A DNA stretch of 64,000 bases from the NCBI GenBank assembly GCA_947652115.1, contig OX393571.1:14598360-14662359 (forward strand). The letters run 5' to 3'. This DNA comes from Blastomussa wellsi (lineage: Eukaryota; Cnidaria; Anthozoa; Scleractinia; Plerogyridae). Of this stretch, positions 8,501 through 14,500 are shown piece after piece. The translations under genes were made by a program, and so were the position numbers. Numbering within the stretch: position 1 is the first letter of the stretch; each line of letters starts with the position of its first letter. The notes beneath the pieces are model-generated. The model saw only the letters and a list, made by a program, of their open reading frames with translations, did not search any database and had not been told where the DNA came from.

Positions 8501-11500
8501 TTCCCTTGTCTTCGCCGTCGTGACTGCTTAATTAACCAATCAAAACACAAGCTCACGGCCTGTAACATCAAATTCAAGTTACTGTTTACGACAACAAAAC
8601 TGGCTTTGAACGTGTTTTTTTGACGAGGCCAGGCTAGGCCTAAGCGATGGTTATTAAAACAAGACGCCCATTCTTGCAAAAGCCTACATGCAACTCTTTA
8701 ATTTCAGCCGCATGTTGCAAAGCATAATGTACCTAACCTGTTTTGAAATCTCCGTTTGCAATGTCACCACATCCATGTCAGTGGTATTCCTGTTGGCAGC
8801 GACCTTTGACTTGTCACCTGCAGTTTGTTGTTTCTGTTTATTCCCGCCATACTTTGTTCGGAACTGATCCGCTACGGACACATCGATCTTTTGGAACAGC
8901 GGTTTGGGCTAGAATGATTAACTTTATGTCAGCACGTGCACAATATCAGTTCTTTAGTTATTAGGCCATTTCCGAGTTTTCTTTTGCCTCAGCGTCAAAA
9001 CGAGTCTAAGTGCGAAACCATTCGTATGAAAATGTGTTTTACCTGCATCTTCATGTTCGCGCAAAACAAGCTATTTCCATATGAATAGTTTCGCACTTAG
9101 ACTCGTTTTGAAACTGTGGGTAAAGGGAACTGGGAAATGGCCTATTACTGCTCAAGTTTCGCGTTCTTAATCGATGAATTCAGTGATTGCTCAATTAAGA
9201 GCTGAATTCTCCTGAGAAGCAGAGCACTCATGAGCCAATAAATTATAAACAATGCATAATTATGGGCTCTTTAAGGGATTAACCTGGCTTGGATTGACAT
9301 GAAATCATGCAAAAGTTAAAAATATTAAAAAATAAAAACAATAATGTTGAGATGTTTTGGGCTCTACTAAGTACGTGTACTCTCCATATTTTCTATTTTC
9401 TTTTCTGGTAAATTTGCTATCTGAACAAGTGACAGTCGTTTTTTGCCATGATTACCTTTATACATATCCTGTGAGCACCTCAGTGTTGTGCTCATGAAAC
9501 TCGTTTAAATTCTAGTTCTTGGAAAGGACTATGAGAATGGAAATACAATTTTAATTCTTAAAAAGGATACTCAAGGTACGATTTCAATTTTTCTTAACTT
9601 TTCTTTGCATTCCTTCGCTTTTTTCTATTTGATCTTACCTCTCCAATTTTGTGTCCAGGCTGCAGATAGGGAATGAAGTTATCCAACACAACGTTGCCTT
9701 CGTCCGTGACCTTCAAAACAAAGCATGACTTAGCACTTTTGTTTTCAGACACTCTTCCGGTCAACACTCCTGGTAAGGTTATGAAAACAAAAATGATCTT
9801 CCCGGAAAAACAGGGATAGCGTTTCTTATATTTTGCACCTTACTGCCGCGAAATGCGTATTTATACTCTTGTAACAATAGCATGTTGTAGAGAAAGGCGT
9901 TCTCCAACCAAAACAGACAACGAAATCTGAATATAATTCACCTTTGCCAAAAAATGCGATGCAACTTGTTTGCTTCAACAGAGCATTTGGATTTAATAAC
10001 GAACATTTTTCAGTCAATTTCGTAGAAATAGCACAAGTTGTAGGCCAGCCGTTTATCCTTGAAAACTGAGTGTAAAAATAGGCAGTATAGGATCCTTTTA
10101 ATCTGCACTTTAAAGAGTTTAAGATTGTATGCAGTAATAGCCCGTGTATAAGAACCTGAATTTTTCAATTTAGCCTAAATAGGTTCTTATATACATGGTA
10201 TATAAAGCAAATTTAGGCTACCAAGGTTCTTAAAATAGGTTAGGTTCAGTGTGCACAGGTACAGCATATGTCCTTAACAAAACATAACAATATTTGATAT
10301 TTTACATTTAATATTTTGTGATTCAGAGAGAGTTGGAGATGGTCAGAAAGCTTTCTTTGATACTGCAGTAGAGTACAGTACTTGCAAATACTTGGGGAAT
10401 TATTTGAATGGCAAACACAATAGACATGCAACATGAAAAGTTAGGTGAAGTTACTTTTAAATAGATGATGATCTTAATTCAGCAGTTTCTACCTGTACAC
10501 TTTTACAGCAGCCCCACTGATAAGAACCTAACTTAAAATTTTAGCCTCAATAGGTTCTTATGTGGAGGGGGCTTAAAATGAAAATTTTAGCCTAACAGGT
10601 TCTTACACGCGGGCTATTACTGTAATCAAAGTGAATTCAAGGAATCGCTTTGCACGCCAAACGGACCTACCTTTAATTGTTGTTGAATTTCGTCACTGAC
10701 ACCAGGCATATAGGGATGAATAAGAACAGACAGCAGCCAGGACAGGTTTGCTGAAATGCCTGCAACTGTACCTGCACGTGATCTGGATGAATTCAAATAA
10801 AAATTAACCCATCACTCGGGCCAACTGGCCCATGCAGCTAGGGCTGATCCCAATAGAAGTATTGCAACTCTCCAGGGGCGGATTGAGAGGGGACCAATGG
10901 GGATGCAACCTCCCCCCCCCCCCCTTCTGCTTTGATTGTAAATGTTTTTTTCTTTGGTAACCTTGCATCTCTTAGTGAACGTTAATGTGTAGTTTGCCTT
11001 CTCTTCACAGCTGCTTTTTCAGTCCCCTCTTTCTAACTTTGTTGGATCTGCTCTTGCTCTATCCTAATATAATCAAAGTTCGCAGCAGATTACCCCTAGC
11101 GTTTCGCCAATATTTTCTGATAGTTAACAGTTTTCAACAATAGTCGATCTTGTGTGTTTTGTGACAAAGGACACTTTCATACAAAAAAACAGGAACTTTG
11201 ATTAACATTTAATCCCGGATAAACTTTAAATGGCTTTTGAACAAACTGGCCAAGTATCTGGTCTAAGAACACAAGACAGCGACCCTGGTCAGGATGTGGA
11301 TCCGGATTGCACTATCCAATGCCCAACTGGTCATAAGGCCAGTGCGTCTTATTAACATTCAAAGCAGCTTAATTTATACCTGTCTAATTCACTGCTCACA
11401 GCGTAATTTATACCTGTCTGATTCACTGCTCACAGGTTAATTTATACCTGTCTGATTCACTTCTCACAGTTTAATTTATACCTGTCTGATTCACTGCTCA

Positions 11501-14500
11501 CAGCTTAATTTATACCTGCCTGATTCACTGCTCACAACTTTATATATACCTGTCTGATTCACTGCTCACAGCTTAATTTATACCTGTCTGATTCACTGCT
11601 CACAGCTTAATTTATACCTGTCTGATTCACTGCTCACAGCATAATTTATACCTGTCTGATTCACTTCTCACAATTTATACCTGTCTGATTCACTGCTCAC
11701 AGCTTAATTTATACATGTCTGATTCACTGCTCACAGCATAATTTATACCTATTTGATTCACTGCTCACAGCTTAATTTATACCTGTCTGATTCACTTCTC
11801 ACAGTTTAATTTATACCTGTCCGATTCACTGCTCACAGCTTAATTTATACCTATCTGACTCACTGCTCACAGCTTAATTTATACCTGTCTGATTCACTGC
11901 TCGCAGCGTAATTTATACCTGTCTGATTCACTGCTCACAGTTTAATTTATACCTGTCTGATTCACTGCTCACAGCATAATTTATACCTGTCTGATTCACA
12001 GCTCACAGCTTATTTTATACCTGTCTGATTCACTGCTCACAGCTTAATTTATACCTGTCTGATTCACTGCTCACAGCATAATTTATACCTGTCTGATTCA
12101 CAGCTCACAGCTTAATTTATACCTGTCTGATTCACTGCTCACAGCTTAATTTATACCTGTCTGATTCACTGCTCTTGATAAGAACCCAGGGCTGGTTGGA
12201 CTGAATGTATTGATTACCAAGTTTCGATATGTTCAACACGTCTTTTAAGCCTTCTCGGAGCCTGTAGTGGAGTTAAAACACAAGGCTTATGTTTCGTCTT
12301 CAGACATTTCTTCTCAAAATGAAACCAAAAATTCCAAATCAATTGAAACGACCAACAGGTTTACTGAGAATGGCTGAGCACGAGAGCTGGGAACACATGT
12401 ACTCTCTACATATTCACTTTTGTACCCCGGGTTATGCTACTCTAGCCGGTGGACTAACATTAGGGGTTGATAAGTAAACACTTATGACACCCTTGGTCAA
12501 GAATTTCTTCAGGCGTTTTGTGAAGCTGTATGAAGTGGGTGAATGGATGCCAGAAAATTGGTGCCCACATTTGTGAGGCTGTCGGTAGACTTTCGGGGGT
12601 AAAAAAATTGAGTCCTAAAACTAGGATCCCGTTAAGAATTCATACTAATGCACTGATAACAAAAGAACCTCATTTTCTCAAGATTGCCGATGTACGTCTT
12701 CAATTCTCTGTTGATAAGCGCAACGAAGTTTTTGTCCTCGTCGGTCAATTCCATGGCTGGTATTACACCGCCAAAGTTGTTCTGCACAAACATCAAGGAT
12801 CTGACAAAATAGTTAAAATTTAACCATGAGCAAAAACATCTTCTTATAACATGCTATAAGAATTATAACAAGTATACTTGCTCAGGTGATTATAGAGATG
12901 CGCGCGCTCTGATTGGACGAGGATTGCGTCATATCTCTGCTGTAATCACCCCGCGTGAGGTTATCATTGACTACTTTATAACCGAGAGTGAGGTCGTTAC
13001 TGGAAAATCTCATGCAAACTGAGGCCTTGACAATTAATATGACAATTACGTTGAGTCGCGAGGTTTGTAATGTGCAATTATATCCGCGACTGTTGGAAGG
13101 CGTTGGTAGATTAACAATTTCCAAAGCCAGTTGGTAGATTTACAAACACATCTTTGGCTTCAAAAATGCCATGATCGTCTCTTGTCGTTCTGGAAGGATT
13201 TCAGTCACTTCGAATTGATTTTTAACCGCCTCGAACGTAAAATTCCAGAAATCTGCCGCAATCGCAGCCGTGTTTATTTTCTTTCTGGATTTCTTCAATT
13301 CTATGGTTTCGCAAGATACTATCGACCAATCACGGCACACAAAAGAACGGCCATATGTAAGAACCAGTCAGAGACTACTATAGAAAACCCGAGATGAACG
13401 CGGGGTACAAGAACAAGCTTCTGGTCGCTGGTTTGCAGACGGACTATACTGGGGTTTTCTTTCGTCTGCAACGCAGGCTATCTCTCTCTCTTAGCCAATC
13501 AGAGCGCGCGTTCAGAAACGAGAAATTTTGTTGAGTATATAATAACATGTCGAAGCACTAATTTTCTTATCTGGCCACCGCGCGATTTCCTGATATTTTT
13601 GTAGAAAAAACAAATAAAATGAAAGAAAATACAATTTCTCCGATAATCATCAGAGCAGTTATACTAAAACAATTATGCTCTGGCCTCAGACTCTGTAAAT
13701 GTTGTCGACTAATCCCCTCCACTTCGTCCCGAGGATTATTTGACAATATTTACTTCGCCTTCGGCGAATAATTGCTAAACTGATAGAATACAATGACACC
13801 ATACCGGTTTATGAAGTTGCCAAAATTGTTGAGCAGTTCAGTGTTGTTACGGGAGACAAAATCCGACCAACTAAAAGCGCTGTCCTGTTAATAAAAACAT
13901 GAAAACCGGAATTTGAAATATACAGACTCTCCATTTCAGCTTCCGAAGGGTTTCGGCTTACGTGAGCTTTGATATTTGAACGTTTGAAGGGTTAAAGTAC
14001 CTGGGTTACGATAGACAACACTAGTTTGAGATAACAAACTGATGAACGGGCAAGTTTGTTTCTGTTTGTGTCGCAGTTTCCAGGTTTTATTAAGATGCAC
14101 AAGTGGTCTCACCTGGCTCTCAGGTCGAACGAAAAGCAGGTAGAATCTCCAGATGTCTGCTGGGATACCCGTGTCGGCAGCATCATCGCCAAACACCCCT
14201 ACTCCACGACTCTTGGAAAATTTGTCATCTTCATAATTGAGGTATTCTGAAGATTGAACAAGACGAGAGAAACTTGAAGTATGAACATGAAAATGAATCT
14301 GAAAGCTGTACTTGAACTGTTACGGTTATCAATCAGTCTCGATACACGATACAAGTATGAAAGACTACTGTCTTCCTGTAGGAAGGGGGGGAGGAAGCTG
14401 CTTCGCTTGGCAAAAAACGTCTTCCAGGTGGACTCAAACTCTCGAATCTCTTTACGGTGGCCAATTCACATTATCAACCCAGTTGATAAAACCGAATTAT

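Follow-up and report, generated by a model that had tools for sequence, protein, structure and literature searches.

The 64,000-nt stretch of contig OX393571.1 analysed here (the window) contains the gene for cytosolic methionyl-tRNA synthetase (MARS1), in which a 34-nt unit, present 24 times in tandem, crosses the boundary between exon 24 and intron 24 and repeats the splice donor with it. The array is very probably a long new minisatellite of the mirage type, the name given in amphioxus to tandem repeats lying over exon-intron boundaries, and a near-neutral by-product of DNA duplication in which the first donor is used. The anatomy of the array, the sharing of both the exonic and the intronic half by its units, a paralogue with the same intron and no array, and the nonsense outcome of donors 2-24 were observed.

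Gene Model and Anatomy of the Array

The assembly analysed has a size of 367.8 Mb in 124 contigs, one of which carries the window. MARS1 was modelled on the minus strand, from 31753 to 8002, as 28 exons and 27 introns, with a doubtful donor for intron 8. A MARS1 protein patched together from the exons was taken as the query, and among the best 120 of 8000 matches the closest named relatives were Pocillopora verrucosa (87% identity) and Stylophora pistillata (86%), both pocilloporid corals according to a taxonomy lookup; the orthologue P0001 was nearer than both (89%). From these closest named relatives, the host of the array looks like a stony coral. The internal exons of MARS1 span 35 to 171 nt. 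The features of the gene needed here are as follows:

8002..31753, minus strand: MARS1, from tblastn of P0001 and a splice-pair search
12157..12261, minus strand: exon 24 (105 nt), which ends with the exonic half of copy 1 (17 nt, 12173-12157)
10783..12156, minus strand: intron 24, 1374 nt, donor GT 12156-12155, acceptor AG 10784-10783
10671..10782, minus strand: exon 25, joined in frame to the first donor
11363..12173, minus strand: array of 24 copies of the 34-nt unit, each with 17 nt of the exon 24 end and 17 nt of the intron 24 start

Tandem Repeats Finder, proposed for this region in a first-pass annotation, placed the array at 11365-12174 with a period of 34, 24.0 copies, 91% matches, and a score of 1389, the highest among its 27 rows in the window. 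Divided to match the exon-intron junction, the array runs on the minus strand from copy 1, which begins at 12173, to copy 24, which ends at 11363; it is thus where the first-pass annotation had put it (11366..12177), with ends a few bases off. The unit consensus is AGCAGTGAATCAGACAG/GTATAAATTAAGCTGTG (the slash, here and below, marks the exon/intron junction) and copy 1 is identical to it. The unit is 34 nt long in 23 of the 24 copies and 29 nt in copy 15. Substitutions relative to the consensus affect 30 of 811 cells (3.7%): 13/408 in the exonic half and 17/403 in the intronic half, so both halves are common to the units. This confirms the earlier claim that the unit joins the exon end to the intron start, with 17 + 17 nt in 24 copies, and disposes of the possibility that only the intronic half is shared. 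The exact 9-mer CAG/GTATAA was found in 20 of 24 copies; copy 19 has CAG/GTATAT, which scores slightly higher than the consensus donor. The remaining deviating copies are:

11834..11867, minus strand: copy 10, weakened donor TAG/GTATAA
11732..11765, minus strand: copy 13, weakened donor TAG/GTATAA
11698..11731, minus strand: copy 14, weakened donor CAT/GTATAA, without AG/GT
11669..11697, minus strand: copy 15, 29 nt, with a 5-nt deletion

Two features of mirages are present: the repeats cross a true exon-intron boundary, copy 1 being the end of exon 24 and the start of the intron, and AG/GT splice signals occur in many units (23 of 24, copy 14 being the sole exception). Across the genome, the unit was matched at at least 10 places, every one inside the MARS1 array.

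First Donor, Later Donors, and Reading Frame

In protein-to-genome splicing against P0001, the donor at 12156 was joined to the exon starting at 10782 with a score of 55, versus 38 for the next best pair, and the 12157-to-10782 splice yields a protein that aligns colinearly with the coral orthologues. The assignment of copy 1 as the true donor, with the exon probably ending at 12157 as the first-pass annotation had it, is supported by this protein alignment. The use of donors 2-24 would add 34 to 777 nt, and the same stop codon is met in all 23 cases, which bears out the earlier expectation that every later donor gives a nonsense mRNA:

12132..12134, minus strand: first in-frame TGA after the use of any later donor

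As a general rule, nonsense-mediated decay targets mRNAs with a stop ahead of later introns; since three further introns follow the exon 24/25 junction, mRNAs from the later donors should be its targets.

A weight matrix built from the gene's other 26 donors puts the true donor in 19th place among 27, which is middling to weak, and nothing therefore points to a specially strong array. Relative to its score, 19 of the 23 later copies are equal, one is higher, and three are lower; 6.6% of 953 GTs on the minus strand between 8000 and 24000 score as high. The predicted pairing with U1 was -7.2 kcal/mol for the donor GT versus -4.4 and -1.9 kcal/mol for the other GTs of the unit. The predicted RNA structure revealed no clear difference among the 24 donors, with mean unpaired probabilities from 0.39 to 0.70 (0.50 for copy 1).

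Paralogue and Origin of the Array

The genome contains a second, diverged cytosolic MARS1-like gene (G000 C9, about 6023292-6044139; L015-L017), whose exons come in the same order in the parts that were matched; it is a diverged paralogue and not an allele. Its exon 24 ends AAGGGAAGCGAATCCGACAG/GTATGAATGC (L015:4541/4542) and is followed, at the same place as MARS1 intron 24, by an intron of 1138 nt in which no array was found. The intron is thus older than the array, and the expansion is secondary; a gain in one paralogue is simpler than a loss from all but one. The creation of the intron itself through tandem duplication of an AGGT-bearing sequence, another candidate origin, was rejected on the evidence of the same array-free intron.

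In the C9 paralogue, another donor is crossed by a tandem duplication with a period of 31 nt and two copies (L015:2505-2563, corresponding to G000 C9:6038504-6038562). The exon concerned ends LLNSISAT, and its donor (L015:2521/2522) lies within the duplication, which includes 17 exonic nt; the copies are identical at 24 of 31 positions, the second reads CAT/GTTAGA, and the Tandem Repeats Finder score is 90. With it, the genome holds another event of this kind, a small mirage, although one such boundary match could lie within what the array density would give, an estimate that covers the window gene alone.

In the window MARS1, the unit opens at the array's left edge with a codon for Ser (AGC, 12171-12173). 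The homologues have Gly at this position in 114 of 120 cases, Lys in three, Glu in two, Gln in one, and Ser in none, and the C9 paralogue has Gly. The apparent Gly-to-Ser change coincides with the array's left edge and may either be earlier than the array or have been written in from it.

The proposed course of events is that a tandem duplication in one of the two MARS1 paralogues captured 34 nt, 17 from the end of exon 24 and 17 from the start of intron 24, and that the array presumably grew to 24 copies through slippage or unequal exchange. The first donor would serve nearly all of the mRNA, since the 105-nt exon would be set through exon definition, and copies 2-24 would act as spare U1 sites. 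In the excerpt of PMC5861446, two alternative 5' sites can both carry U1 with just one of them used. Any products of the later donors would be removed by nonsense-mediated decay, and the copy number would drift freely while copy 1 stays intact.

Constraint and Chance Placement

GT is present in 24 of 24 copies, as the first-pass annotation had seen by eye, but the retention is not a sign of constraint. The absence of change in 48 GT cells at 3.7% divergence has a binomial P of 0.16, and two random columns are unchanged with a frequency of 0.25 (permutation, 24 copies); at a P of about 0.16-0.25 the retention does not speak for selection on GT, which was rejected as unsupported. The permutation value for the nine donor columns is 0.17. 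The nine-column donor window has four substitutions versus a minimum of two among 26 windows and is not the least variable; columns +1 to +5 are unchanged, but the same holds for columns -13 to -10, for which no role in the donor is known.

The other MARS1 boundaries were compared with their own introns in 34-nt windows (54 boundaries). Donor 24 matched at 34/34 and the other 53 at only 15 to 20/34, with shuffled donor queries, run for all introns but the longest, reaching 16 to 22/34. The gene holds 990 bp of arrays and 54 boundaries, for which free random placement would cover about 2.3 boundaries, so an array touching a boundary is not improbable in itself. Among the 18 arrays of the window (Tandem Repeats Finder rows merged, the TTA run left out), three contain at least two donor-like sites on the same strand.

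Alternative Explanations

The mirage-type origin is favored by the register of the array with the junction and by the equal conservation of its exonic and intronic halves; it corresponds to the neutral expansion that the first-pass annotation had listed among its options, and that option holds. Several points weigh against it, mostly where the use of the first donor is concerned. Of two strong duplicated 5' sites, the intron-proximal one tends to win. The splice-site scorer suggested in the first-pass annotation gave 20 of the 23 later copies a score equal to or above that of the true donor, which makes competition among donors plausible. Human IFI6 demonstrates, in the excerpt of PMC4526556, that minisatellite donors are usable. 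Variants shared between copies peak at lags 3 and 10 (four each); shuffled orders reach such a peak in 22% of cases (P = 0.22), which gives no significant sign of a higher-order or block duplication of copies. Concerted evolution within the cluster is another trait of mirages; the observations that bear on it are the 3.7% divergence from the consensus and this lag comparison.

The same scores and the IFI6 case would suit a decoy or length-dependent switch, in which donors after the first vie for U1 and send an adjustable, length-dependent fraction of the pre-mRNA into nonsense products and their decay, so that array length sets the MARS1 dose. A stop is reached from every donor 2-24, as this would need, and U1 is described on both of two alternative 5' sites with one used (PMC5861446, excerpt). 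The switch nevertheless appears unlikely, given GTs with no sign of constraint, weakened donors in three of 24 copies, a C9 paralogue devoid of the array, and described mirages that are reported to splice normally (excerpts of PMC3087553 and PMC3902484). In a milder form, new mirages may go on arising at donors in coral genomes, as in that of amphioxus, and codons at the exon end may be rewritten when exon and array exchange sequence. The near-identical spare donors directly downstream could also be seen as a buffer that rescues splicing when the first donor is mutated; as each of them leads to nonsense mRNA (23/23), rescue would fail unless the insert were spliced again, and the probability of a buffer is close to negligible.

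Such recursive or second-round splicing at the copies could restore the correct mRNA, and the sequences AG/GT in 23 of 24 copies and the later-donor inserts running from GT to AG in 22 of 23 agree with it. A recursive splice site has a good acceptor with a polypyrimidine tract before GT, whereas in the copies pyrimidines make up 29% of positions -20 to -4, versus 68% in real acceptors, and the median acceptor score is 1.0 (range -4.4 to 3.1), versus 7.4 for the 27 real acceptors. The gap is not absolute, with four of the 27 real acceptors also below 3.1. Of all 1057 AGs of the region, 32% match the copies in score, and recursive splicing is highly improbable. An assembly artefact in copy number is conceivable in that short tandem arrays can be miscounted, but it is rated as very unlikely, since the substitutions differ between copies, copy 15 has its own deletion, and the array sits on a 19.2-Mb contig.

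Other Features of the Window

An open frame on the plus strand at 28990-29538, which we take to resemble a piece of a retroelement polyprotein, sits inside the long first intron of MARS1. Another open frame, on the minus strand at 34533-34976, presumably resembles S-adenosylmethionine synthetase. Two 12-nt arrays, at 43016-43330 (26 copies) and 43490-43693 (17 copies), are mutually inverted, as are the related arrays at 5669-5775 and 5877-6041 (CGAAAC-type and GTTTCG-type). Four 81-nt copies with 98% matches at 53301-53627 have open frames on both strands.

Comparison with Known Systems

The first-pass annotation knew of no described family of tandem splice-donor repeats, which was wrong: amphioxus mirages (excerpts of PMC3087553 and PMC3902484) and the human IFI6/6-16 minisatellite (excerpt of PMC4526556) are described, and this kind of repeat is therefore already known. 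According to the excerpt of PMC3087553, mirages occur in amphioxus Adh3 and in the globin genes BflGb6 and BflGb9, carry AG/GT in many but not all units, are unstable in length between alleles or tissues, and leave regular splicing undisturbed, as judged from Adh3 data and globin RT-PCR; the BflGb6 unit measures 150-160 bp in six and three copies, and the Adh3 units measure 10-72 bp. A further mirage in TnC, and PGBD5 duplications compared with mirages, are mentioned in the excerpt of PMC3902484. The MARS1 array likewise crosses a true exon-intron boundary with AG/GT in most units, and differs in its 34-nt unit and 24 copies. Normal splicing and length instability are reported for the amphioxus mirages; the MARS1 array is described from the sequence of one assembly.

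The title of Turri et al. 1995 states that the human IFI6 (6-16, G1P3) minisatellite supplies multiple splice donors, and in the excerpt of PMC4526556 IFI6 makes three mRNA species and draws donors from two repeat units further downstream. Multiple donors within a minisatellite are common to IFI6 and MARS1; downstream units are reported to be used in the former, whereas in the latter each later donor leads by sequence to a stop (23/23). The IFI6 unit is said to be 12 nt long, with an in-frame outcome.

Introns inside tandem duplicates are described in fission yeast and elsewhere (excerpts of PMC4974935, PMC3629103, and PMC2812944). Intron gain by tandem duplication is represented by the Rogers model, ATP2A1, and the 24-nt units of fission yeast, with AGGT as the duplicated site according to the review and AGGC according to the fission yeast paper. 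The MARS1 array also consists of tandem units with proto-splice sites, but it is younger than its intron and does not include the acceptor.

The host group and the copy number may be new in relation to the open-licence literature, within which no search was aimed at cnidarian mirages. The array would extend mirage minisatellites, known from amphioxus, to a stony-coral-like host, with more copies than the amphioxus globin mirages and with an array-free paralogue as a control. It offers a natural test of how the spliceosome chooses one 5' splice site among 24 near-identical ones; if the later donors were used, array length would be a heritable dial on an essential enzyme.
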